DNA from: Owenia fusiformis
Lineage: Eukaryota > Annelida > Polychaeta > Sabellida > Oweniidae
NCBI GenBank assembly: GCA_903813345.2
Contig: CAIIXF020000004.1
Span: forward strand, 3,803,525-3,867,524
DNA length: 64,000 bases
Direction of reading: 5' to 3'
Part shown: piece after piece, positions 12,901 to 43,377 of the stretch
How the letters are laid out: every line of letters begins with the position of its first letter
How positions within the stretch are numbered: the stretch's first letter is position 1
Notes under the pieces: generated by a model
What the model was told of the DNA's origin: nothing
Seen by the model: the letters and a program-made list of their open reading frames with translations, nothing else
Databases searched by the model: none
Made by a program: the position numbers and the translations under genes

Positions 12901-15900
12901 AATCAAGTTGGCATGGTTACCAAAGCCTTATAGTTGCCATGGCAACCGTAGAAATGGGGTAAAAAATGAGAGCAAAAAAACACCCAAACCCACCATATTG
13001 GCACTAATTTATAAAATATTTCTAGACATACAAATTTTCTTAAACTTTGTTTTCATCTAGGACACTTCTAGACAACGAAAATATCAAAAATTGGGGGTAG
13101 GTTTACCACTTCGATTTTTTTCTAGGCTTGGTCAAAGTAAAACTACGAAAAAAGCACTCATTTTCACTTTTGAATCACCTATTATCGCCCAAATGGCTAT
13201 ATTTTTTCAAGGTCAAGGTCGCCATGTTAAAAGTAGAATTACGGAGATAAATCTGCTCTTCAGACGATGTTTGATGGCTTTTCTTCACCACGGAACAAAG
13301 ATCTTTGCGCTGGTATGCCTATTTCCATGAGATAATATACGTGAAAGAGGAACTATGTCTTTAAATGTCATCAAAACTTTATGCCAACACGTGAAAAGGC
13401 CATTTCGCACTACTTTTGGTGTAATAATTCCATTTGTACACCTGGAATCTGGCCATATCAGAAAAGGAAAACAGCTGATAGTTCAGACTTCTTGCCAAAA
13501 TATCAACATAACATGATTCCACTTCATAGATCTTATCAGCCCTCGATTGTATGTCATTGTAGAATTCTAAAATTAAATGCTAATTTTTCTCCAATATTGG
13601 CATGCTTTCGGTGAAAAATCTTTGAAGCGATGTTTTGAATTTTTTATTGTAAATCAAGTGCATTTTATCCAGCTTATGCGACATCCAAATAAAGGCACTG
13701 AAAAAATGAGTGTCGGACATCTGTGTCATGGTTGATTTGATCATGGTTGTCATAGTAACCCCATAATTTGAATAATTCAACAGATGATAAAGAGCCATAT
13801 TTTGCATGGATTTCTTGAAAATAATTAGAATGAGAACACTTTAAAGAAAACAAACCTGGATTTGGGTGTCCTCAAAACTTCACTGTAAAGCCTCACTTGT
13901 CATAGGATATACCCCATATCCAAAACCTCCCATCACATAACCCTCATAGATGCAGGGAAATACATAATGAATAACAAATATTACAGGTAAGTTACCATAG
14001 TAACCAGTTTATATTTTATATTTCAGTGGATGATGAGGCATTTGTTACCTTAACTACCAATGACACATATTCCCTAGGATGTTTAGTGCTGGGAAATTCC
14101 TTACGAAGGGCAGAGACCAATCGAGTTTTGGTTGTCATGGTAACCGATGGGGTTTCATCATCAATGAGGTATGTACTGAATATATAATCTCTTACAAAAA
14201 ATCCATTTCTGGTTGTGGTTTGCCCTTTCAAAATAGTACAGAAATATACACAATTGACAATTACTGCTTATCGGGGGGGGGGGGGGGGTGAATTACTAGG
14301 TCAGCTAAATCTGATTAGAATTATGTCCCGCATGCAGCACGTTATGTAAGTGGGGGGGGGGGCAGATATATCTTGGCGAGAACAAGGTAACTCCTTGAAG
14401 CTGTTGAGTGATTTACATTGTTTCAGAAACAACCTTGAAGAGTTAATGAAAGCAGACATATCTTTAGAAAACAAGTAATACCCTGTCAGGCATAGTGTGT
14501 GTGTAGAGTGAATTTATGTGAACTAAAATTGCTAAATTGACATTTGGAGCTGCTCTAGTAATGATGCAACTTGTCTAGGTTATTCAGTTCTGCAGAGAAA
14601 TGTTTGGTTCAAGTTAAGAGAAGAGGTCATTACTACACATTACCATAACTGTGTATTTCCTCATCCTTGGTCCAAGGGTATTTTGCTTCTTTTCCATCTG
14701 AATGTAAACATAAATGAAGTCCTTAGAAGTAGGATGCACTATCTATATCAAATCAAGGTTTTGTAAAAGCTACCTAATTTGAACATCACTGGAACAGGCT
14801 ATAAGTGTTCAGCGTTTCTTAATGTTCGATTTAAGAGTAGGGGTCATTACTATACACTACCATTACTGCTCATCTATCAAATCAGAATATAGTAAAACCT
14901 GTCTAATCCAAACACCACTGGCCATAAGTGTTCAGTGTTTCTTAATGTTTGATTTAAGAGTAGGGGTCATTACTATACATTACCATTACTGCTCATCTAT
15001 CAAATCAGAATATAGTAAAAACCTGCCTAATCTGAACACCACTGGCCATAATTGTCAGTGTTTCTTAATGTTCAATTCAAGAGTAAGGGTCATTACTATA
15101 CATTACCATAACTGCCCATCTATCAAATCAGAATATAGTAAAAACCTGCCTAATCTGAACACCACTGGCCATAAGTGTTCAGTGTTTCTTAATGTTCGAT
15201 TCAAGAGTACGGGTCATTACTATACATTACCATTACTGCTCATCTATCAAATCAGAATATAGTAAAAATCTGCCTAATCTGAACACCACTGGCCATAATT
15301 GTCAGTGTTTCTTAATGTTCAATTCAAGAGTAAGGGTCATTACTATACATTACCATAACTGCCCATCTATCAAATCAGAATATAGTAAAAACCTGCCTAA
15401 TCTGAACACCACTGGCCATAAGTGTTCAGTGTTTCTTAATGTTAGATTCAAGAGTAGGGGTCATTACAATACATTACCATAACTGCTCATCTATCAAATC
15501 AGAATATAGTAAAACCTGCCTAATCTGAACACCACTGGCCATAAGTGTTCAGTGTTTCTTAATGTTCGATTCAAGAGTAGGGGTCATTACAATACATTAC
15601 CATAACTGTGTATTTCCTCATCCTTGGTCCAAGGGTATTTTGCTTCTTTTCCATCTGAATGTAAACATAAATGAAGTCCTTTGAAGTAGGATGCTCTACC
15701 TATATCAAATCAAGCTTTTGTAAAAGCTACCTAATCTGAACATTACTGGAACAGGCCACAGGTGTTCAGAGTTCACTTTGCCAAGGTTTCTTAAGGAAAT
15801 GTGTTCATATTGAGAGGTGTTCACATTAAGAGGTGTTCAGATTAGAGGTATGTTAGGATATATATGTTTTACTATACTTATCATTTGGAATCATATTTAT

Positions 15901-27900: not shown

Positions 27901-30900
27901 CACCTTCTGTTACATGATACAGGGTGCCAATAATTTACAGACTTTGTATTGGAATTGTAAAGGGACTTGCTGCACACCCAGTATATCTTATAACATCATA
28001 TACTTGCAGGGAACAACTGTCGAGGGTGTTTGACCTGATAGTTCGAGTTGACGTCCTGGACAGTCGGGATTCACAAAAGCTTGACCTCTTGACCCGACCT
28101 GACCTTGGGGTGACCTTCACAAAACTACACTGCTGGAGGTTGACCCAGTTTAAAAAATGTGTCTTCCTAGATGCTGATACTATGGTAAGATCATGGAAAT
28201 CAAGTTTTGAAATGTAAAGTAGAGAGGAAAAGAGTGGAATTCACAAGAGGTGTCCTACACTTAAACTCATGTATGTGTGTTCGTCAGTCTTGATGTCGCC
28301 GATCTCATTCTTTCCTCCCAAACCATGTTCTCACAATGGGAATATTGGTTCTTTAGTTGCAAACCACCGCCAGTTCCTCTCTCCCGAACTTCATCAATTT
28401 TGTATTGTTTGTATGTACATATATTTAATAAATTGAAATTGAAATTTAAAAAAAAAAAAAAACTTATTTCTCCACTCTTGCATCGAGTGGAAGGAATGAA
28501 GTCAGTGATTGAGGTTCAGACTCATTTGTGATCTTCAAATTCAAAATTCTAGCTGGTTGTATTCATGATATATCTGGCAAAACATATAGTGGAAACTCAT
28601 TTCATTCCTGATTTTCAGAAGGGCATTTTTATTTTTATTCTAGAATGACCAAGTTGAAAAGGTTTTTTTCTGAGTAAATGGTCGGATGACTCACGATTCT
28701 ACATAGATTTCCACTCACTTTTATTTCTAAATATCTTTTTTGTTAATGTTGTTTATGATGTGCAAATTGGTTAATTCTGAAAATCTTGCAATTAGATTAC
28801 TTTTTTTTTTATAATAATAATCAGTATAAATAGCCAATTTTATGACCCAATTATTAGGAGGGTCAATAGAGATATGATTTATCATATAAACATGGAAATT
28901 GCAAATGCCAATAGATATTAAACATCTGATATAAAGAGAAATACAGTCAGTCAGCCAGACAGTTGATTTGCTTAATTTTTGCTGGTGAAACTCAGAGTCA
29001 ATTAAAGATGCAAAATTCATTTGAAAATGTTGAATGTTATATCATATAAATACTCAGGTACCATATCGGTTCCAATCTTTCTTTAAGAAATTCAAAAAGT
29101 CAGTTTTAACATTTGATTTGCTTTAATTTTAGGTGCTCCAAAATGTAGATGAACTTTTCGAGAGAAAGGAGCTTTCAGGCGCACCAGATGCTGGATGGCC
29201 AGACTGTTTCAATTCTGGCGTGTTCGTGTACGAGCCAAGTGAAGAGACCTATAGTTCATTAGTTGAATTCGCAGTAAAACAAGGCAGCTTTGATGGTAAG
29301 ATTTTATTTTCAAATTCACTGAATTACAGACTCAGTTAGTCTTGCTTCTAAGACAAAAAATAAAAAATCAATTAATTGTGCACAGAATTCAAATGTACCA
29401 TCGGATAACTTATAAATTAATTACACACAAATCTCCTAAAATCCCTTAAAATAGACTTCAACCAAATTTTAAAGCTATATGGCAAAGGGTCTGTTACAAT
29501 GACATTTTTTACAAGTATATTTTAATATCTATCCATGCTGTATTGCTTAGAAATTTTCATTAACATGTGACTATTGTAATTTTAGGTGATAACCTAGTAC
29601 CATAGATATGACTGTGTATTATGAAAAAGGAGGAGACCTTGTACCTTATATATGACTATTATGAAAAACTCCTTGTACCATACATGTGACTATTATGAAA
29701 AAAGTCTAAGTACCATACATGTGACCATTGTAAAAATCTAGTACCATACATGTGACCATTGTGAAAATCTAGTACCATACATGTGACCATTGTGAAAGGT
29801 CCTAGTACCATACATGTGACCATTGTGAAAGGTCCTAGTACCATGCATGTGACCATTTTGAAAAAGCCCTAGTACCATACATGTGACAATTCTAAACAAG
29901 TCCTATTTCCATACATGTGACCATCGTGAAAATGCCCTAGTACCATGCATGTGACCATTGTGAAAAGTCTAGTACCATACATGTGACCATTGTGAAGACT
30001 CCTTGTACCATACATGTGACCATTATGAAAAACTCCTTGTACCATACATGTGACCATTGTGAAAAACTCCTTGAACCATACATGTGACCATTATGAAAAA
30101 CTCCTTGTACCATACATTTGACCATAATTGTAAAAAATCCTAGAACCATACATTTAACCATTGTAAAAATCCTAGTACCATACATGTGACTTGTGATTTT
30201 AGGAGGTGACCAGGGTTTATTAAACCTGTACTTCTCAGATTGGTCAACAAAAGATATATCACGTCATCTCCCATTTGTATATAATGTAGTCTCTCAGGCC
30301 TTCTATAGTTATCTACCAGCATTTAAACAGTAAGTGGTTCACCAGGGGGAGGTTCAATGCAGACCTGTACAAACTACAGAGTTCTTACTAGACTTTCAGA
30401 GCTTTTTAAGTGACGCAAATGGCAATTTTTTCTCCGGTTCTAAAAAATATCTGGTTAGAACCCTAAACTGTATTCTTAGGGGAAGGGTATTTTATGACAT
30501 ATTTTTATTGGGGGTAGATGAGAAAATTTCAAAAAGTTTTTTTTTATCAACAAGGTGTAAAGTCATTATTTCATTTTCCCTGTCTTGGTTATAATGTCTC
30601 AATATTTCATGCGTGCATACTGGTTAATATTTTGATGAATTAAAGAATTCTCATGTAAATTTACCTTGAAAAATAATCAGAAGTTTGTATGGGTCATGCA
30701 TTGACTGTATACCTACATCAACTTTTATGTTGACATGCTGTGTGAGTTTTGTTTGTGTGAGTTTGGTGGCTGTGTGCTCTCTTCATATAATTTCGTAAGG
30801 ATTAACTCAAGACCATACAGTAAAACCTGTCAAAAGTGAATTGTACACCCCCAATCTGCACTCTTAAATCACGGTACCACATGGTATGTTCAGGCCCATT

Positions 30901-33900
30901 AAGAGTATGGTGTCACCCAGTGTTCATAGTACCATACAGTACTGTTTTAGTCTATGGTATATTGTAGGGTACCATATTCTGTGGTACTGTACACTTCTGT
31001 AGCTAGAATGGTACTGTACGATACTCTGATACTGTGTTTGTGTAATAGGACCAGCTAAATGTGTTTACATTTTTGGTTCCTGATGACATTGTGGAAAAAG
31101 TTGGCCAGGACTGAAAAGTGTTCACATTTTAAGGTGTTCATATATTCAGGTTTTGCTGGTGTTCTTATTTCTTTCAACTGACTTAACTTTGTTAGATTTT
31201 TTACTTACATACATTTTTGTATTTTTATTTTCTTTCACTTTCCTTTTTATTCTTTGACTTCTCTATTTTTCTAACATGTCTAATTACATACTTTAGTAGT
31301 TATTAATTACACAACTTAAATCTAAACCATAAGACACCAGAAATAAGAAGTTCAGAAGTTAATGCATACAGCCCCAAACATTGCCTGTTCTTGTCTCACT
31401 CAGTGATTGGGTGAAATTGGCCAATCAAAAAATAAGGTCAATAGATATGGATAAAATTGAATTCATACATGATTCTTAACTTCTCTCTGGTGTTCTAGGT
31501 TCCAACTATGTGTGAGTATAAGCTAGTAAAAGTGAAATAATTAAATAATAAATTAATTTATTTTTTAAGTCTAACACAATATCTATAGTACTAGTCTATA
31601 AAGTCTAACAGCTTGTTAAACAGTTCAATTCTTTCATTTATTTGACATTTGTAGCAGAAAAGGAACATAAGGAATATAAGTTAACTGCCTATTGAGAATT
31701 TCCTCTATGAAGAAAATTAATGACTACTTGTATCTCTTCTATTTACCTCTAAATTTCTCAACTCTGAAAGGATTACGATATTACTCTGAATGTCACAATT
31801 ATGAAGTTTACATACAGCCAATTCAAATGAATACATGTAGTTGTAATTAAGCTCAGTCATCTTTAGATTAATGTTAGTGAAGTTGTGTTTGATTTATTTA
31901 ATAAATATTTGACACTTTCAATTGCCATTGTCTCCAACAGCGATATGTTATTTGCTTTTTTTTGAGAAAAAGTTGTTTAAACTTTATATGGGGCTTTTAA
32001 AGGTCTGCAGCCTTGCTTTTGAAAGCTCTGATTCTGATTCTGTATTTTAATGATATAACTTGATTGTATTTCAGATTTCACGACAAGATACGCATTGTTC
32101 ATTTCATCGGGGCTATCAAACCATGGAATCACAAGTATAACACACAGACGGGGGAGGTTGAAATCCAAGAAGAGGCTGGACACAGCGCAGAATTTCTCAA
32201 GCTCTGGTGGGCGATATTCTTATCAAAAGTTCAGCCATATTTAGACCCACAACAGGTGAGTTGGACTATGCGGGAAATCATTCTCCATGCAGTTTTGTTT
32301 CGGTGCATTCCTTCTCTGCTGATCCATGGTTCATTGCTCTCAGGATCTAAGGAAATTAAGAGATTGCTATTTCACTATTTCACCAGTTTCTCACAAATTA
32401 CTTCATTTTATTATGTCACCACCAAAAGTGTTGGCACCCGGCATCTGGCATTTGGCATCTGTAGCAAATGGCAGGTAGTTACATTTTCCATGTTAATGTC
32501 CTGTATCACTTTTAGATGATAACATTTGAAATCCAGTCATGGTTGAAGTTCAAATTGCAATTCTGGCGAATCATGAGTAGGCAGAGAGAAGTCAAAATTG
32601 CACTGAATGAAATGCTTGGAGATTTGTATTGGGCATTATGCCAGATGTTTTATTCTAAATTAAGAATGAAAAATTTGATTTTCTGACATTTCTAAAAAGA
32701 TTTAAGAAATGGAATATAGTGATTACTATTATCTATGCATGGGTTGAATATGATGGTTTGAAATGTGAAATCGAGTGTTCAAAAGTGGAATTAGCATGGA
32801 ATTAAATGAACATGTGTGTCAAGTGATTTCAGACATATTGGTAGAAATAGAATAAGTATCAGTTACCATGCAGAGTAAAACCTGTCTAAATGGAACATCT
32901 TTGGTACTTCTAAAGTGTTCCACTTGGGAGGTGTTCCACTTTACATGTTTCACTGTACTGTATTCCCCAATACATATCAAAATAATTAGCTGGCCATTAG
33001 TAATCTTTACTTTACATTGTCCTATGTTGCTCATTTACCCTGTTTGTTGTTAACGCTCTATATTGGTCAAAAAATGTCAGAAAATCAGATGCTTCATTCC
33101 ATGATAAGAGAAAAATTGAGTGGAGCATGAGAAGAGGAAAACCTAATGTATGAAAATATGAGTAAATCTATCATGTAAAATGTAATGTTCTCCACAAACC
33201 AACATTCCGCCATTCATTGCCTTGGACAGACTAACACCTCATTCTAGGCTTGCTATATACAATTATATTGTGAAGCCCTTTACAAGAAGTTCTATGTACA
33301 ATTATTCAAATGTGAATTACTGCCTATAGTTTCAAACAAAGTTGCAGTACTTATTTCTTGAAAACTAGAACTTTTTAAATAAATAAAAATCCTTCATAAA
33401 ATTCCATTTTGATTCATAGATGTCATTCCAAGGTTTCCTTTCAAGGGCAAAGTACATGGTAAACAACTTTAAACCATTTCAGTAATAAATGATAATTAAC
33501 ATTGAAACAATACGAGAGGATGGGAAGATCAGTGTGCCAGAGCATGAAACTTCATGATCACATGATCACTTCCTGTCTGCCTGATCAAATAGTGCAAGAG
33601 GACGTGTTTTTAAAAGCCAGATGTAACATTCGGAACAAGTGTCGAGGATATTACTGGGCAGTTGCATACTTAGTTTATGATCAAAGTCTGTAGAAAATGA
33701 CAAATGTGACTTGTTTTGGCTGTTTTTATTATGAGTGTTTATAGTTGAAAGTAAAAGTACATTTCCTGGAAGTGAATATTTTGCCTCTTCTGAAAGTGAC
33801 ATTGCCTCTTCTGAAAAGGATATTGCCTCTTCTGAAAAGAATATTGCCTCTTCTGAAAGAGATTGCCTCTTCTGGAAGTGACAGGGCCTCTTCTAAAAAG

Positions 33901-36900: not shown

Positions 36901-39900
36901 ATCTATAATGTGCTTCCCTAAAATTAGGCTTATCTAAAATGCACAGTGTATTAAAAAATCTGATGTGGCATGTTTCTCGTGATGTCATTCTGCACCTTGC
37001 GTCATCAATCTACTGGTAGCCTATAGGATTGCCCCTGTCCTGTAACTCTTTAACTATTGTCACAAAATTTTGATTTTCAAATTGAGGCAGTTGGAACCAT
37101 TTCCTTACTTTTCTGATGCATTCTGGGATATATTTATGTGCCATGTTTAATCTTAACATCATTGTGTTGGTGAATGACATTTATTTTGGCGCAAAAATCT
37201 CGGAGTTCATCAAAAATGCCTCATTTTGATCCAAAAGCTTTTCGTGCAATCTTGAATGTTGACCTTTGAATTGAGCTCCGCTAGGCCCCCCTGCTTGCGT
37301 CATTGGCTACATATAAAACATGTGAACTGTACAGTATGTATTACTGTTTTCATTGGCATAAAATATGAACGAAAATTAAAACAATGCTACTTGATGAAAT
37401 TGATTCGAGAACAGTCTAGTAAAAGTATACTAATAAAAGGCAAACAGCATTTAATGTGAGACAGGACTGTCAATAGATGGCGGTGTTGATTATATTCTGT
37501 AACATTTTAATTTGTCAAAACAAATTTAAATATTTTGCAATGAAAATTCCAAAAATTACTCTATTTGGAATCTTAAAATGAATAAATATACTTTCTGGCC
37601 GATTATATTATGCCACATATATTAAATTTTATCTGATCACTTCCCACAACAGGAAGTGATGTCACACGTGACCTTGTTCAATCTGCCATCTATACTAGTC
37701 ACAAACTCCAATAACTTTTTACTAAAATATGACACAGCTGATTCTTAATCTTTCTTGATGATAAAATCTTAGTATAAATTCCTCATTAATGTAGAATATA
37801 CTTTTTGCAATCCAGATGAGATTTTATTTCTGTAGATATATTTTATTAAAATTATGCACCATTCTTTTTGCCTTATCCTTTATTTATAGAAAAAACTTCA
37901 TTTTTAGAGCTTACCAGTTTTCTTATAATTTAAACCTATTTCACCTTTTTCATACATTATAACTCTCATTTCATTGTTTTCAGATCTATTTCTCTCCTAA
38001 TCCGCACCCCTCTATACCTGACCCAGAGCAGTATAAGATTTCTTGTCCGTTTCAACCACCCGATGTTCAACCATTTTATGAGCCTTCTTTTGAGGACCAT
38101 TCTGAACAGTTTGATATGCCCCAACCCCATCCGAGACCATTTTACCACATGGAGAATGTTTACTCGGAGCAACCCATTTCGCAATCATCCGGTGATGAAC
38201 CAAATCAGTATTATTATGAATCTAAAGATTTTGAAAAAACATGGACAGAGTTTGGTCAAGAAAAACATCCTAGTCCAGAACCAGAAAGTGAAGTCCCTGA
38301 TTCACAACAGGAAACCCCTGCCCCTGAATGGCAACCTGAAACCCCCGCTCATGATTCGCAACCTGAAACCCCCACTCATGATTATCAAATAGAAACTCCT
38401 GTCCATGATTCACAAACAGAAACCCCCACCCCTGATTCACAAACAGAAACCCCTGTAGATGCTCCTGGATCAGAACCTGGTCACCCCCAAGGGGACTCCA
38501 AGGTTACTGAGGTATTTCAAGGCCATATTCGCCATAAGTGATTCCTATCAACCATTCATTGTGACATCACACTGTACGCTCGCTGTACATTCTTTAGATC
38601 TAATGCCACCTAAATAGTTTGTCTCTAATCGAAGGTCTATACAAGTGATTGTGGTTTATTATATCTAAATGCTATCTAAAGACAGTTTTACCATATATTT
38701 TCAAAGATAACTTATTCTGCCCAGATGCTACACCCAGCATGAGTTGGGCAAAAAAGAAATTCTGCACAAATTTGATCAGTTTTATTACGATCAACAATGT
38801 TAGGGGAGGTTGACATGGAAATTCCATGAAGAAGTTCTGGGAGTGGAATATTTATATATAAGTTAATACTTTTAAATTGAATCTTTATAATGACTTGTAT
38901 AGGCCTAAATAATCCATAACTCCACCCTTTTTGTTAGAGTTTAGTAGCAATGTTGTCCGTATAGCTCCAGTAGATTGTGCAGTAGGTCCTAGTGTTAAAT
39001 ATAATTTTTAATGTCCACTTTTTAATGGTATCCTTCATGTGAAGGGGTTCACATGGACCCGTTTTTCTTCCCAGTAGGTTGTCTTCCTAGTATAGAATAA
39101 GTAAAGGAGGTTGTTTCTTCCCAGGGGTAGTAAAGGTGTATTTTCTTCCCATTAGTAGCAAAGGAGGTTCTTTCTTCCCATGGGTAGTAAAGGAGGTTCT
39201 TTCTTACCAGGGGATTTCGAATTTGTACTCTACCTTTCCCAGATTTTCTTCCCATTGGGCTAAAAAGTGGTGTGGATTCCCTGCACTGAAGGATACTTTC
39301 AAGACACTTAATTAGATTGATATAGTTTAATACTGTGCATGGTTGATAGCACGCACTTCTGGTGGAACATCTGATGTGTTTTTCATTAATTAACAATATA
39401 CCTACCTACCTATATATAATAATATTTAGATAAAATGTTCTTTCATATCCTCAGTATTTCACACTATAACTCACAATTCTTGTGTTAAATGTGTGATTTT
39501 CAAGCATTTCTCTCTAATTAATCTTCATTCCACTCCCGTTGTCTTTAATATATTTGATATACATTGAACACTTACCTTTTGATCTAACGGCATTGTGGAC
39601 TTGTCCCGGGAGATATGTTGCATTGATGTATCGATATAATGGAAGAGTCAAATAAAATTTTCAATCGTGGAATTTTCAACATGATAAGCCACGATTACAG
39701 GGGTGTAACATGGATCAAAAAATAGACGAGACACTTAAAATAGATAAGGCATTTTGAACAGATGAGGCAAGATGAGAATTAGAGGGATGCATTTTTGGTA
39801 TTCCCTACCAAAAACCAATAAATTCTATTTTATATCAGCCTCATGAGCTTCAATGCTAGTGTGGGCCTCAGTTTTGTCAAACAGGACAAGATTATACATT

Positions 39901-42900
39901 TGGGTATGAATAATACCCCATAGCTTTGACATTTATTATTATGAAATATGGCAGTCTTTCATATTATATGTACCCTCGTCTAAATACTTTCTTTGGGTTA
40001 AGAGGGCAGGGTGCGAAATTCACTGCTGCCGGACTGCCTCTTGGCAATCACTTTATTGGCAGTGAACTTGGAAAACCTAGATGCCCATTGGGCAATGGAC
40101 TGAATGCCAATATATTATTAAATTCTGGCAATCATGTTTTCACTCTTGGCAATGCCCTTGGAAAGACTGGTTGCCCATTGGGCAATGGACTGAATGGCAA
40201 TATATTAAATTGTGGCAATCATGTGTTCACTCTTGACATTAAAATTAAAAAGACATTGCCTCTATGGCAATGGACTGAATGCCAATATGCTAAATTTGGC
40301 AATCATGTCTTCAACCATAATGCCTGCAAGAGCAAGAGGAAGGGGGAAATGAGTTTCGACTCTAGTATTTAAATAAAAAAATTAATTAATTAAAAATAAA
40401 ATAAATTATTTTGAGATTCCATCATATTGATAAGATGATTGACAGTTGTCATAGCAACCAGCATAGAGACCACAATGATTATTATATATTTCCAATTATA
40501 ACATAACTACTAGATTCAAATTTATATAACATATTACGTTAAAAAGTGTTTAAAATTTATATTTATATCCTATAAATCTTTATTATATATAGGTGAGGTA
40601 TATTGAAATGTTTTTCATTTTTGGTCTAACTTGATTTTATATACTGATGTTAACAGGTGGTTATTTGAAATTATTAAATGATTGATATTGATTGACTTTA
40701 ACTGAAACGATTGAAATTGTTAAACGATTGAATTTGATTGACTTCAACTTGAATGATTGAACGATTGAATTTGGCGAGCTCCAAAAGCGGTTCCTTACAT
40801 CACTGCATGCTATATTAGTATTATTGGTTGTACACGCACAATAGATTTGGTTATGCAATGTTTGCACAATAGTAGAGAGATGCTATATATTGATGTTTTT
40901 CAAAATTGAATGAGTAATTTAATTATTCAATTGTATACCATTCAGATTTGAATAACTGACAGTTTTTATTTTGTTTGTATTTTATTTTTATTATAATTTA
41001 CGGTTCTGGTAATGAGAATTGTAAAACTCATATTTGTATTCTTATTTTGTATTTGAGTTGTCTAGATCGTGGACATTTATTGAAATATGCAATTAAAATT
41101 ATTTCACCTTTGTGACTTTCCTGTCCCTTCTCTCCTAAATACCTCCCTCTGCACACCTCCCCAAGGTGATGTAAAAAGGGGATGGAAGAGGGGAAGAGGG
41201 GGAGGGAGTACGACAGAGACAAGACACCACACACATTCAATGCTTCAATCCCATATCTGGCCTAATATTGAAACAGTATTCAACAAAACAAACAAAACTG
41301 CTAATGTTACAATTATGTTACCAGGACCACACCTTTAATAATACTTTGTATATTAATGTAGATATATTTAAAGGAACAGACCAACTCTTGTTAAAGAATT
41401 ATTAGGTTAACACAATTTTTAGCTCTAAAAATGTTCACTATGCACAAGTTTTGCCTGTTTATATTTTCATATAAACCATTCATAAATGTAAAACTAGGCT
41501 CAAATTTTAAAATATTTCCAAGTAACGAGGCTCTGATTCTTTAATCATATTTTATTATTTTATGAATTGATTAATATTTTTCAGTTTTATTTATTTTATG
41601 ATTTGATTAATATTTCCAATTTTAATAACCGAATAATTTAAATTAATTGCACGAATTCAAAATCAAATTGTGTTTTGGAACAATCATATCTGGCATACAT
41701 GACACAAAAACTAAATTTTAGTTTCTGTGCCTTAAAGAACCCATAATGCGTTGTTAAAGTTCCTCACAACTAAAAACTGTATTCCAAGACCGCTCGAAAT
41801 ATAGCATGAAGTTTTTAAACCAAACCCAACCTGTCAAAACAAATATTAAATTCCTTGGCCTTATAATATTGACCATTTCTATTCTGCTTGCCTTTCAGGG
41901 TGGGTTAATAGGCCAACTAGCGGCATTATCGATCAACAAAACACCCGAGCCTTACCCCGGGTACAGCGGACCCACCCCTGGGTCGAGGGAGCACCAGTAT
42001 GCCTGGGAGTGTGGCCAGATTGACTACAGGGGGATAGATGCCTTTAGCAACATTCAACAGCACCTTGACGCAACCATCAATGGCAGTCAACCAGTAAATA
42101 AGACAGTTGAGGCTCCAACTCCTGCCGAAGCAGTAAAAGAGCCAGTAAAAGAGGCTGCCAAAGTTAATGAGGTTGCCAAAGTTAAGGAGGCTCCCAAGGT
42201 TAGCAGTGGTGATATATCTGCTGTAAAGGCTGTCACATCAGATTCTCTTCCTCAAGTTAAATCAGATTCAGTAAAAGCCCCTGAGCCTGTAAAGGCCCCT
42301 GAACCAGTTAAGGCCCCAGTTAAAGCCCCTGAACCAGTTAAAGCTCCAGCAAAAGCCCCTGAACCAGTTAAAGCTCCATTAAAAGCCCCTGAACCTGTGA
42401 AAGCCCCTGAACCAGTCAAGGCCCCAGTAAAAGCTCCTGAACCCATAAAAGCTTCAGTAAAACCCCCTGAAACGGTTAAAGCTCCAGTAAAAGCACCAGA
42501 ACCAGTTAAAGCTCCAGTAAAAGCCCCTGAACCAGTTAAGGCTCCAGTAAAAGCCCCTGAACCAGTTAAAGCTCCAGTAAAAGCCCCTGAACCTGTGAAA
42601 GCCCCTGAACCAGCCAAGGCCCCAGTAAAAGCCCCTGAACCAGTTAAAGCTCCAGTAAAAGCCCCTGAACCAGCTAAAGCTTCAGTAAAAGCCCCTGAGC
42701 CAGTTAAAGCTCCAGTCAGAGCCCCTGAACCAGCCAAAGCTCCAGTAAAGGTCCCTGAACCCGTGAAAGCTCCAGTAAAAGCCCCTGAACCAGTTAAGGC
42801 CCCAATAAAAGCCCCTGAACCAGTTAGAGCTCCAGTAAAAGCCCCTGAACCAGCTAAAGCTCCAGTAAAAGCCCCTGAACCAGTTAAAGCTCCAGTCAAA

Positions 42901-43344
42901 GCCCCTGAACCAGTTAAAGCTCCAGTCAAAGCCCCTGAACCAGTTAAAGCTCCAGTTAAAGCCCCTGAACCTGTCAAACCCGCTATTAAAGTTCCTCCAG
43001 TGACAGCTCCCAAGCCAACAGGTCCCAAAACTCCCCCAGTCGCTGCCCCTAAACCAACAGTTCAACTTGGAGCAGCCGGAACAGCTACTACTGCTCCTAA
43101 AACTGTCCCCCCTGCATTAAAACCAACAGCTCCACCTCCCGGGGCTCTTCCAACAAAAGTTGCCCCTCCCACTGCACCCAAACCTGGAGCTAGACCTATG
43201 AAACGGACTATTTCTGCCCCAGTTGGTAGTGTTCACCCTGTCGCCCCACCCCCAGGGGTTATAATACCACCAGCCACAGGCCCCAAACCTGCCCCCAAAC
43301 CAACTACTGCATCTACACTTGCGTCAAGGCCTCCTCCAAAATAA
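6927..43344 (+). CDS. Glycogenin, eight-exon gene with extended repeat tail
   Basis: Glycogenin is the self-glucosylating GT8 enzyme that uses UDP-glucose to build the primer for glycogen synthase. Coding exons 6927-6942, 14027-14168, 28010-28184, 29133-29295, 30203-30329, 32075-32255, 37984-38511 and 41899-43344 join in frame to give 925 residues. All junctions are GT-AG. Residues 9-268 are the catalytic domain: [10 protein letters not shown] start, DAD metal-binding motif at 107-109, GGDQG with the catalytic Asp at 168, and Tyr200 in [10 protein letters not shown], matching the human acceptor Tyr195. Residues 269-444 form a P/E/T-rich linker. Residues about 475-504 ([18 protein letters not shown]) are the glycogen-synthase-binding motif, usually the extreme C-terminus. 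Here about 420 more residues follow: some 25 PEP motifs in [10 protein letters not shown]-type units (569-808) and a P/A-rich end. Nothing is broken. Identification is strong; exon 1 and the tail rest on splice phase. Confidence 0.95.
7648..8510. mobile_element. Non-autonomous hAT-like transposon
   Basis: An 863-bp segment starts CAGTGTTCGCG and ends CGCGAACACTG, an 11-bp terminal inverted repeat typical of hAT elements. ATAAAG flanks both ends directly (7642-7647 and 8511-8516); the match extends to eight bases, ATAAAGCA, if the left end is drawn two bases further in. Eight bases is the usual hAT target duplication. Phrases like GTCCCAGGGACG lie near both ends as a sub-terminal inverted pair. 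No transposase is recognised in it. Confidence 0.75.
9841..10112. repeat. 40-bp tandem repeat, about 7 copies
   Basis: The unit is TATTGCACCC AATGCACCCC TGCAATATGA CAGGAGGGTG, with one copy lacking a base. Because 40 is not a multiple of three and the unit lacks stops in the antisense direction, three overlapping open frames appear on the minus strand; these are artefacts. Confidence 0.95.
10385..11147. repeat. Inverted repeat pair of about 100 bp
   Basis: The stretch 10385-10490 (ACAGTAAAACCTGTCTTAGT onwards, ending at CTTCTGTATAG) recurs in reverse complement at 11050-11147 with a few differences. About 560 bp separates the arms. The arms carry the dispersed GTAAAACCTGTCT / GAACAC motif. 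It may be a foldback element or two insertions in opposite directions. Confidence 0.75.
10690..10795 (+). repeat. Dispersed repeat family (AAAGAGTGGAATTAGCA)
   Basis: The segment with AAAAGAGTGGAATTAGCA and, further on, ACTCTAAATTGTATAGAAAT recurs at about 43600-43705 and in part at 28195-28245 and 32755-32855. In reverse complement it appears at about 25460-25575 and, in part, 50340-50400. It is a short interspersed family of about 110 bp with no visible coding potential; its mode of movement is not evident. Confidence 0.65.
11960..12130. mobile_element. Relic of the GGCC..TAGCCAGG MITE family
   Basis: This contains TTTTCGAAAAATTCCAGG, GTGAAAACTGCATGATTTTG and CTCCTGGCTACTGGCCTG, the same order of phrases as the element at 388-579. 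The left end is diverged, so exact limits are uncertain. Confidence 0.55.
12636..12731. mobile_element. Short foldback element
   Basis: GTTTGGTACCATC at 12636-12648 is repeated as its exact reverse complement at 12719-12731. An inner part carries GTGACGTCACG. At 96 bp it is probably a small MITE or transposon relic. Confidence 0.55.
14027..14168 (+). CDS. Glycogenin exon 2
   Basis: The 142-bp exon follows the acceptor ATTTCAG and ends ATGAG/GTATGT. It encodes residues 6-53: the [10 protein letters not shown] start of the GT8 fold (UDP-glucose binding), the [11 protein letters not shown] helix and the [15 protein letters not shown] strand-loop. It matches the human segment starting [10 protein letters not shown] position for position. 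Confidence 0.95.
14800..15610. repeat. 123/124-bp tandem repeat, about 6.5 copies
   Basis: The phrase TTTCTTAATGTT recurs at 14815, 14938, 15061, 15185, 15308, 15432 and 15555. Each unit holds GGTCATTACTATACATTACC, CATCTATCAAATCAGAATAT and AGTAAAACCTGCCTAATC. Alternate units read CATAATTGTCAG and CATAAGTGTTCAG, so part of the array is a 247-bp dimer. A block of about 190 bp with TCCTCATCCTTGGTCCAAGG flanks the array on both sides (about 14625-14815 and 15585-15775) as a direct repeat. Confidence 0.9.
17136..18352. repeat. 26-bp minisatellite, about 46 copies
   Basis: The unit is GTTGTACATATTGAAAGGTG TTTGTA with single-base variants. Variant order is itself repeated: a block of five variant units at about 17282-17420 reappears at 17672-17810, 15 units later, and another block at about 17541 reappears near 18189. 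Longer blocks were therefore copied recently. A series of antisense open frames across the array comes from the absence of stops in the unit. Confidence 0.95.
18340..18610. repeat. Degenerate AGGTGTTCACAT repeat
   Basis: Beyond the 26-bp array lie irregular copies of AGGTGTTCA-CATT-GAG (for example GGTGTTCACATTAAGAGG). The stretch at 15790-15850 has the same motif. This looks like the source sequence from which the regular 26-bp unit was drawn. Confidence 0.6.
19262..19607. mobile_element. Foldback element with 36-bp inverted ends
   Basis: GTGTATCTCATACTTGAGTG and the following 16 bases at 19262-19297 are matched in reverse complement at 19572-19607 with one mismatch. The interior has GAGCGGGCAGGATATATTG and its inverted partner, then AT-rich sequence. 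Related phrases (GTTATG.ACGGTCGG, ATATCCAAAAC) occur just outside at 19610-19740 and at 52923-53032 and 13905-13955. Confidence 0.75.
20222..20375. mobile_element. MITE-family copy, GGCCCGTAGCCAGG end
   Basis: It begins AGGCCCGTAGCCAGG followed by G and C runs (GGTTCGGGGGGTTCGGGCG, then poly-C), then the shared interior phrases AAAATCATGCAGTTTTTCACC and AAGTGAACTCCCCCC. The right end is truncated. Same family as 388-579, in the reverse direction judging by phrase order. Confidence 0.6.
20835..23019. repeat. 168-bp satellite, 13 copies
   Basis: GATAGGTA recurs at 20859, 21027, 21195, 21363, 21531, 21699, 21867, 22035, 22201, 22369, 22538, 22707 and 22876. The spacing is 168 bp, with 166 or 169 where indels occur. 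Copies are highly alike. From the third to the tenth unit two types alternate, TTTGATAAAGAAACAGAAAG and TTGATAACAGAAGCAGAATG, so a 336-bp dimer is the recent unit of copying. A diverged partial unit continues beyond the element at 23023-23687. Confidence 0.97.
23023..23687. mobile_element. GC-rich MITE with perfect 27-bp TIRs
   Basis: The element begins TGGCCTAGTCACATAGCCCG and ends in the exact reverse complement; the arms are 23023-23049 and 23661-23687. TAA stands on both sides (23020-23022 and 23688-23690), a 3-bp target duplication of the kind made by PIF/Harbinger transposons. It is far richer in G and C than its surroundings and carries many GAGCTCGGT and CCGGCCG motifs in both directions. 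It sits within the last unit of the 168-bp array. Open frames inside show no transposase motif. Confidence 0.85.
24967..25073. mobile_element. Small foldback, CATGGGGAGTAAGTCA ends
   Basis: CATGGGGAGTAAGTCAC with CTCTTATAT on the left is mirrored by TATATAAGAGGGAGCATGACTTA on the right across an AT-rich centre. A related copy lies at 53577-53662. A short, non-coding palindromic element. Confidence 0.5.
28010..28184 (+). CDS. Glycogenin exon 3
   Basis: The 175-bp exon lies between acceptor TACTTGCAG and donor ATG/GTAAGA. It encodes residues 53-111, including [26 protein letters not shown] and CVFLDADTM. The last holds the DxD motif (Asp107, Asp109) that binds Mn2+ and UDP-glucose. The open frame extends upstream of 28010 but that part is intron. 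Confidence 0.97.
28185..29132 (+). other. Glycogenin intron 3
   Basis: A 948-bp intron. It contains part of the AAAGAGTGGAATT dispersed family near 28195-28245 and a retrotransposon-like 3' tail ending in an A run at 28448-28462. Nothing else is recognised. Confidence 0.65.
28280..28462 (+). mobile_element. Probable retroelement 3' tail
   Basis: Sequence ending AATAAATTGAAATTGAAATTT followed by about 15 A residues looks like the 3' end of a LINE or SINE: a polyadenylation signal, a short repeat and poly(A). The 5' limit and target duplication are not clear and no reverse transcriptase is recognised upstream. Confidence 0.4.
29133..29295 (+). CDS. Glycogenin exon 4
   Basis: A 163-bp exon between TTTTAG and GATG/GTAAGA. 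It encodes residues 112-165 plus one base: [19 protein letters not shown], then [15 protein letters not shown] and KQGSFD. These are among the best conserved glycogenin segments and line the active site of the GT8 fold. Confidence 0.97.
29296..30202 (+). other. Glycogenin intron 4
   Basis: A 907-bp intron, of which about 600 bp next to the acceptor is the minisatellite at 29585-30190. The sequence at 29566-29600 looks like a second copy of the real acceptor region. Confidence 0.7.
29585..30190. repeat. Minisatellite with 30-37-bp unit in intron 4
   Basis: About 18 imperfect copies of CCATACATGTGACCATTGTG plus a variable AAA..CCTAGTA spacer. Unit length varies. The array ends about 10 bp before the exon 5 acceptor, and the acceptor itself (ACATGTGACTTGTGATTTTAG) looks like a unit. 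Antisense open frames over the array are artefacts. Confidence 0.9.
30203..30329 (+). CDS. Glycogenin exon 5
   Basis: A 127-bp exon from acceptor GATTTTAG to donor AAACA/GTAAGT. It encodes residues 166-207 and two bases: GGDQGLLN (Asp168 is the catalytic-loop aspartate), [21 protein letters not shown]. Tyr200 corresponds to the autoglucosylated tyrosine of mammalian glycogenin (Tyr195), five residues offset as are the other motifs. Confidence 0.97.
30330..32074 (+). other. Glycogenin intron 5
   Basis: A 1,745-bp intron. It holds one copy of the dispersed ACAGTAAAACCTGTC family (30819-30845, with GTGTTCACATTTTAAGGTG at 31119 onwards) and a short run of related GGTACCATA words at 30880-31030. 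No gene is seen. Confidence 0.6.
32075..32255 (+). CDS. Glycogenin exon 6
   Basis: A 181-bp exon between TTTCAG and CAACAG/GTGAGT. It encodes residues 208-268: [18 protein letters not shown], the last strand of the catalytic domain with the conserved His and KPWN, then [10 protein letters not shown], the final helix. The domain ends here. The open frame continues past the donor only by chance. Confidence 0.97.
33785..33975. repeat. 18-21-bp tandem repeat
   Basis: About nine copies of ATTGCCTCTTCTGAAAAGGAT with small changes (GTGAC, AGAGA, some copies 18 bp). It is open on both strands, which explains the opposing short frames across it. Confidence 0.9.
36280..36570. repeat. Degenerate TTGCTTGCTAGTGAACA repeat
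   Basis: About a dozen imperfect copies of ATTGCTTGCTAGTGAACATT with irregular spacing, an eroded or unstable minisatellite. Confidence 0.8.
37984..38511 (+). CDS. Glycogenin exon 7 (linker with ETP repeats)
   Basis: A 528-bp exon (176 codons) from acceptor TTTTCAG to donor ACTGAG/GTATTT, phase 0 at both ends. It encodes residues 269-444. The first part is rich in P, Y, F and E; the second has six or so units of 11 residues built on DSQ.ETP..H. It is the variable, probably disordered linker found in all glycogenins. If the donor is not used, the frame ends ten codons later at 38541, which would give a shorter isoform lacking the synthase-binding motif. An earlier donor (CCAAG/GTTACT) is possible but weaker. 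Confidence 0.88.
39085..39215. repeat. GTAGTAAAGGAGGTTCTTTCTTCCCA tandem repeat
   Basis: About four imperfect copies of a unit of about 32-35 bp containing AAAGGAGGTTCTTTCTTCCC. Non-coding. Confidence 0.75.
40040..40320 (+). repeat. Three-copy repeat of 85-90 bp, open in one frame
   Basis: GGCAATGGACTGAATG recurs at 40091, 40181 and about 40266. The first two units are 90 bp apart, so an open frame (39926-40372) shows a 30-residue repeat with PLGNGLN and GNHVFTL. No flanking splice sites or homology were recognised, so I treat it as a tandem repeat rather than a gene. Confidence 0.7.
41899..43344 (+). CDS. Glycogenin exon 8: synthase-binding motif and PEPVKAP tail
   Basis: A 1,446-bp terminal exon after acceptor CCTTTCAG, phase 0, encoding residues 445-925. 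[14 protein letters not shown] and, at residues 475-504, [21 protein letters not shown] match the conserved C-terminal glycogen-synthase-binding helix of glycogenins. A short K/E/V/A-rich stretch (515-550) leads into about 25 PEP motifs, mainly in 10-residue [10 protein letters not shown] units (569-808, 30-bp DNA period), each with net positive charge. The end (809-925) is rich in P, A, T and K (PKPT, APPP). The open frame reaches back to an ATG at 41806, but those codons precede the acceptor. Long antisense frames here are shadows. Confidence 0.93.
   Translation, partial: GGLIGQLAALSINKTPEPYPGYSGPTPGSREHQYAWECGQIDYRGIDAFSNIQQHLDATINGSQPVNKTVEAPTPAEAVKEPVKEAAKVNEVAKVKEAPKVSSGDISAVKAVTSDSLPQVKSDSVKAPEPVKAPEPVKAPVKAPEPVKAPAKAPEPVKAPLKAPEPVKAPEPVKAPVKAPEPIKASVKPPETVKAPVKAPEPVKAPVKAPEPVKAPVKAPEPVKAPVKAPEPVKAPEPAKAPVKAPEPVKAPVKAPEPAKASVKAPEPVKAPVRAPEPAKAPVKVPEPVKAPVKAPEPVKAPIKAPEPVRAPVKAPEPAKAPVKAPEPVKAPVKAPEPVKAPVKAPEPVKAPVKAPEPVKPAIKVPPVTAPKPTGPKTPPVAAPKPTVQLGAAGTATTAPKTVPPALKPTAPPPGALPTKVAPPTAPKPGARPMKRTISAPVGSVHPVAPPPGVIIPPATGPKPAPKPTTASTLASRPPPK
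42270..42990 (+). repeat. 30-bp coding minisatellite ([10 protein letters not shown])
   Basis: About 22-25 units of GCCCCTGAACCAGTTAAAGC TCCAGTAAAA in phase with the glycogenin frame. The unit is an exact multiple of three, so copy-number change keeps the frame. Some units are cut to 18 bp (APEPVK), also in frame. Variation between units includes A or V, K or R, and one PPET. Confidence 0.95.
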
Positions 43345-43371: not shown

Positions 43372-43377
43372 ATTAAA
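43372..43377 (+). terminator. Candidate glycogenin poly(A) signal
   Basis: ATTAAA, a common variant signal, lies 28 bp past the stop codon. It is close, and other signals further downstream cannot be excluded. Confidence 0.3.

Follow-up and report, generated by a model that had tools for sequence, protein, structure and literature searches.

Glycogenins described in animals and yeast end at or near the motif that holds glycogen synthase, and the question raised by this locus is what a glycogenin of the annelid Owenia fusiformis might do with about 420 residues placed beyond that motif. Glycogen synthase is reported to bind a terminal region of glycogenin of ~34 residues (PMC9188544, in which Zeqiraj 2014 is cited on the docking motif). 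How beta particles join into larger particles is described in PMC8116748 as unknown, with glycogenin as a disputed candidate for the binder. A charge-patterned arm past the docking site would be a natural experiment on the unstructured regions of glycogenin, and it would address both the location of glycogen and the size to which its particles grow. If the tail is neutral, it would be just a striking coding minisatellite.

The stretch of DNA analysed here (the window) is 64,000 nt long, and its + strand carries a glycogenin gene. Joining seven exons gave one frame and a model of 920 residues, with the following features.

14027..14168, + strand: exon 2, the first one found; start of the catalytic domain (tblastn with the mammalian glycogenin-1 N-terminus, E 2.9e-15; AG/GT flanks)
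28010..28184, + strand: exon 3; catalytic domain including the DAD motif
29133..29295, + strand: exon 4; catalytic domain
30203..30329, + strand: exon 5; catalytic domain, with the predicted acceptor tyrosine as model residue 195
32075..32255, + strand: exon 6; end of the catalytic domain
37984..38511, + strand: exon 7; acidic linker of 176 residues (6 K/R, 36 D/E) with six ETP units
41899..43344, + strand: exon 8; end of the linker, docking motif, tail and stop codon
41977..42081, + strand: predicted glycogen-synthase-docking motif, residues 466-500, matching 4qlb, 1ll2, 7q0b and 8z0a
42082..42279, + strand: start of the tail, residues 501-566; K/E/A/V-rich, with a short 18-bp repeat
42280..42993, + strand: [10 protein letters not shown] array, residues 567-804; net charge +22
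42994..43341, + strand: C-terminal segment, residues 805-920; P/A/T/K-rich, net charge +14

AG precedes all seven exons and GT follows the first six, the last being closed by a stop codon. The coordinates 41899-43344 proposed for this last exon in the first-pass annotation are exact, with an AG acceptor directly before 41899 and the stop codon ending at 43344. Exon 8 is one open frame and joins the six upstream exons in frame. Exon 2 is the first glycogenin exon detected and begins TG; no start exon was found, and an ATG split over the exon 1/2 junction was assumed as the start of the model. The assumed split ATG yields [13 protein letters not shown], and this stretch needs no gap in the alignment with the human start. 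Much of intron 4 is taken up by a 34-bp minisatellite (16.6 copies, 29637-30190) that ends 13 bases before exon 5.

The catalytic domain aligns with human glycogenin-1 over 259 residues (E 1.4e-106) and scores 76.2 bits with PF01501 against a cut-off of 24.3, as expected of a GT8 catalytic domain; together with the docking-motif match, these results bear out the earlier identification of the gene as a glycogenin. The DxD motif is kept as DAD, and alignment places the tyrosine of FYSYLPAFK at model residue 195, the self-glucosylated residue of human GYG1 being given as Tyr195 in PMC8116748. Both the DxD motif and the tyrosine are present, and self-glucosylation is their predicted function. A glycogenin search of the 498-Mb assembly returned five matches, all inside the window, so that a single gene was detected; the failure to detect a second glycogenin gene is limited by gaps in the assembly. 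A Glyco_transf_8 search gave two matches on C1 and missed the glycogenin of the window itself, and therefore we regard this search as insensitive to split exons. The segment that carries the docking motif has one match in the assembly, and no haplotype copy with a different repeat number was seen there.

The GYG-1 isoform b peptide of 4qlb aligns with residues 466-500 (E 1.5e-5); further matches to the docking region are the GYG1 chains 1ll2 (E 7.6e-5) and 7q0b (E 1.4e-4) and the GYG2 chain 8z0a (E 7.7e-3). A glycogen-synthase-docking motif is present, and we predict that it is a binding site for the enzyme. The first-pass annotation was correct as to the motif and a few residues off in its placement at 475-504. 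In chains of known structure the motif usually lies at the C-terminal end, although this position does not define it, and the match ends at residue 330 of 333 in 1ll2, 347 of 350 in 7q0b and 498 of 501 in 8z0a. In the Owenia protein it stops near residue 500 of 920, with 421 residues after Ile499. Thus, the PDB chains of glycogenin-1 and -2 stop three residues past the match, consistent with the earlier statement that the motif of described animal glycogenins lies at or near the C-terminus, whereas the Owenia protein continues for ~420 residues in the same exon and frame, as had also been claimed.

In other respects the protein resembles glycogenin-1 and -2, with which it shares the catalytic domain, the DAD motif, tyrosine 195 (model numbering), a variable linker and a helical docking motif. 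The gap between catalytic domain and motif is ~206 residues here, 175 in GYG2 (8z0a) and 46 in GYG1 (7q0b). The position of the mammalian NIKKKL, a stretch within the motif that we take to be an actin contact, reads NIQQHL in O. fusiformis, and therefore any actin link would need to come from the tail. No glycogenin tail past the docking motif is described in the titles and abstract openings of the papers listed; most of the subscription literature lies outside this set, and we make no claim of novelty from it.

The central part of the tail had been described as about 25 PEP motifs that share an exon with the preceding docking motif; a count gives 25 units in the array, 24 beginning PEP and one PET. 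Ten residues make up 22 of these units and six residues the other three, and the copies are 88% alike. Glutamate is found in 22 of 22 ten-residue units and K or R at the two lysine sites in 44 of 44 cases, with exact E/K spacing throughout the 22 ten-residue and the three six-residue units. Serine, threonine and tyrosine account for 3 of the 238 residues of the array and are more frequent in its flanks; a phospho-regulated arm within the repeat is therefore less likely. The C-terminal segment contains KRTIS at 43198-43215 (residues 873-878), an R-x-x-S pattern of the kind used by basophilic kinases.

Variation among the repeat units reveals how the array has been constrained. Counted against the consensus, the 22 ten-residue units carry 52 substitutions, which fall 10, 9 and 33 times at codon positions 1, 2 and 3, and expectations were obtained by placing the same base changes at random in 20,000 runs. 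The 33 changes at position 3 exceed the expected 22.1 (P 0.0005), and 33 of the 52 changes are synonymous when 19.4 (SD 3.1) were expected, a number reached in 0 of 20,000 runs. None of the 52 alters charge (11.9 expected; zero in 0 of 20,000 runs). Because the units are copies of one another, distinct changes were also counted once each, and among these 16 of 29 are synonymous (9.5 expected, P 0.00025) and 0 of 29 change charge (7.4 expected, 0 of 20,000 runs). Changes that create stop codons are absent from the 52 where 1.1 were expected, which is not significant alone (P of none 0.29).

The controls were six other arrays of the window whose periods are multiples of three; two of them lie within intron 2 and four beyond the gene model. 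Copies with less than 80% identity to the consensus were dropped, 3 of 12 in one of the two larger arrays and 3 of 6 in the other. No codon-phase bias was found in any of the six (all P above 0.3), the control being limited by this dropping of copies and by the four small arrays, which have just 3 to 9 substitutions each. An antisense gene was considered for the open frame of 269 residues at 42252-43061 and rejected: its openness follows from the repeat unit, and 26 synonymous changes fall there with 21.1 expected, compared with 33 and 19.4 in the sense frame. The array varies in the manner of constrained protein, and its charge pattern looks preserved by selection.

These data also bear on whether the tail is an artefact of the gene model, such that the mRNA usually splices out the repeat or ends earlier and most of the protein stops near the motif, like the glycogenins of other animals. 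Three AAGGT/CAGGT sites within exon 8 (42196, 42748 and 43019) might permit internal splicing, but the coding-type selection on the repeat argues otherwise, as do the lack of any AGGTRAG donor in the exon and the ATTAAA signals that lie 3′ of the stop codon at 43372 and 43421. We judge this explanation improbable. The gene encodes a real, open and constrained glycogenin tail, and the protein is a variant of a known one with a putative function.

Our favoured reading, to which we assign a probability of about 0.4, is that the tail serves as a cationic, PEVK-like tether by which glycogen-initiating complexes are anchored or clustered. Its arm would have grown through in-frame duplication of the repeat and been kept under selection for alternating charges. 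A close rival, which we regard as a serious but somewhat less favoured possibility, is that a coding minisatellite expanded at a protein end where it disturbs little, has no dedicated partner and is subject only to selection that removes changes harmful to solubility or expression. Tandem repeats make up 15.8% of the bases in the window, so that expansion of repeats is frequent here and might be tolerated; the array copies, moreover, are young enough to have kept their likeness. The full absence of charge-changing substitutions speaks against simple tolerance, since it demands more than the avoidance of stop codons, and so does the regular spacing of E and K from unit to unit. The local richness in repeats lowers the surprise of finding a repeat, but not that of its place after the motif or of its constraint.

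Repeats in other parts of the genome were surveyed by searching the assembly with the tail, which produced at least 36 matches (101 of 564 candidates scored). The 35 matches besides the window are all at or below 38% identity. Eleven of these 35, in five stretches, were inspected, and among them we saw no PEPVK array that would indicate a mobile or shared tail domain; the frames read there are other repeats, of the LGQPVNV, SKDDEPVE, QSKSVS, HIEPVTA and KRPNKYTK types. A very long, coding-looking open frame (3,617 residues) with acidic repeats of the SKDDEPVE type is located at C9:37370500-37376000, and this further long repetitive frame in the genome is in keeping with tolerated expansion.

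The first-pass annotation ascribed positive charge to the tail, and this proved correct, at +1 per unit and +37 over residues 500-920. Net charge is -11 in the catalytic domain, -30 in residues 264-470, which include the acidic linker upstream of the motif, and -3 in motif residues 471-499, followed by +1 in residues 500-566, +22 in the repeat and +14 in the C-terminal segment. The 421-residue tail has 71 K/R and 34 D/E and contains no F, W, Y or C; with F, W and Y missing, sugar binding by aromatic stacking is unlikely. Exon 7 (37984-38511) encodes an acidic, disordered-looking linker in which the six ETP units are spaced about nine residues apart, a second repeat in the glycogenin whose charge is opposite to that of the tail array.

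Neither exon 7 nor exon 8 has a Pfam family at E up to 10. A single-sequence AlphaFold2 model of exon 8 has a mean pLDDT of 41.8 and three helices, one at exon residues 4-10 and two within the docking motif at 30-37 and 47-60, with nothing else structured. Confidence is equally low in the docking motif and in the repeat and tail, and therefore the model is weak evidence for disorder. The model fits disorder, and the tail is probably unfolded. Its stiffness, which had been asserted earlier, we infer from composition, the predicted structure being of low confidence throughout.

The titin PEVK region is an elastic, proline-rich charged arm. The Owenia tail, rich in proline, alanine, lysine and valine, is like it in that its short repeats are dominated by P, E, V, K and A and have no predicted helix or strand, a likeness of composition only, and unlike it in that the host protein is a glycogenin. 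The Pfam search offers no sign of titin PEVK/PPAK homology for exon 8, although such methods serve low-complexity sequence poorly. TonB and the N-terminal arm of the myosin essential light chain are likewise extended, proline-rich and charged arms that span distance or touch an acidic partner, and the tail resembles these by analogy only.

When glycogen synthase is bound at the motif, the arm of the proposed tether would point away from the complex. An extended proline helix measures 0.31 nm per residue, and in that form 420 residues would reach ~130 nm; a beta particle is on average 20 nm across. On our favoured reading the tether would be weak and multivalent and would anchor or cluster complexes through acidic partners, for which actin filaments and the acidic linkers (-30) of other glycogenins nearby are candidates by charge alone. 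One specific form of clustering would be an inter-particle glue, in which the acidic linkers and basic tails of neighbouring glycogenins pair electrostatically and hold initiating complexes and growing beta particles together, with repeat number setting the spacing; we consider this very unlikely. Published work in favour of the tether ties the variable linker of glycogenin to particle size in vitro (PMC9188544) and GYG2 to alpha particles: in human cells GYG2 is reported to promote them, and they were also seen with a highly expressed chimera bearing the GYG2 linker (PMC12267440). Glycogenin has been proposed as a binder between beta particles, but knockout evidence reviewed in PMC8116748 is contrary, particles including alpha particles being formed without glycogenin. 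This finding counts against the tether as well.

A different arrangement would confine the charges to one complex, where the tail folds back on the acidic linker by charge pairing, shortens or stiffens the connection between catalytic domain and glycogen synthase and so tunes particle size with no need of outside partners. Net charge differs in sign before and after the motif (-30 and +37), which would suit such a device, and in vitro the particle size is reported to be controlled by the length of the variable linker (PMC9188544). With just +1 per ten residues of repeat, however, pairing may be weak at physiological salt, and we hold folding back to be unlikely, if a little less so than an artefact of the gene model.

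The glycogen synthase gene of O. fusiformis has an exon arrangement that may merit a separate look. A search of the assembly for the glycogen synthase family gave one locus, with 14 matches, all on C6. The gene (C6:12576500-12586300) has four tandem versions of a 118-bp exon between the same two neighbours, at 12579487-12579604, 12579998-12580115, 12581489-12581606 and 12581830-12581947, all with AG/GT flanks. Because 118 is not a multiple of three and two versions together would break the frame, the arrangement suggests a cluster of mutually exclusive exons. Among the literature matches listed, none concerns such glycogen synthase exons, which is too little to judge novelty. The versions form two pairs, with 30/39 and 31/39 identical residues within pairs and 21-23/39 between them, and by alignment the exon covers human GYS1 residues from about 275 to 313. 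Contacts to glucose-6-phosphate are given in PMC9287172 as His291, Glu292, Gln294, Lys301 and His287; in the GYS1 alignment no histidine stands opposite His287, and His291, Glu292, Gln294 and Lys301 are kept in all four versions. The adjacent N-L or N-M, by contrast, is replaced by S-K in the second exon pair.
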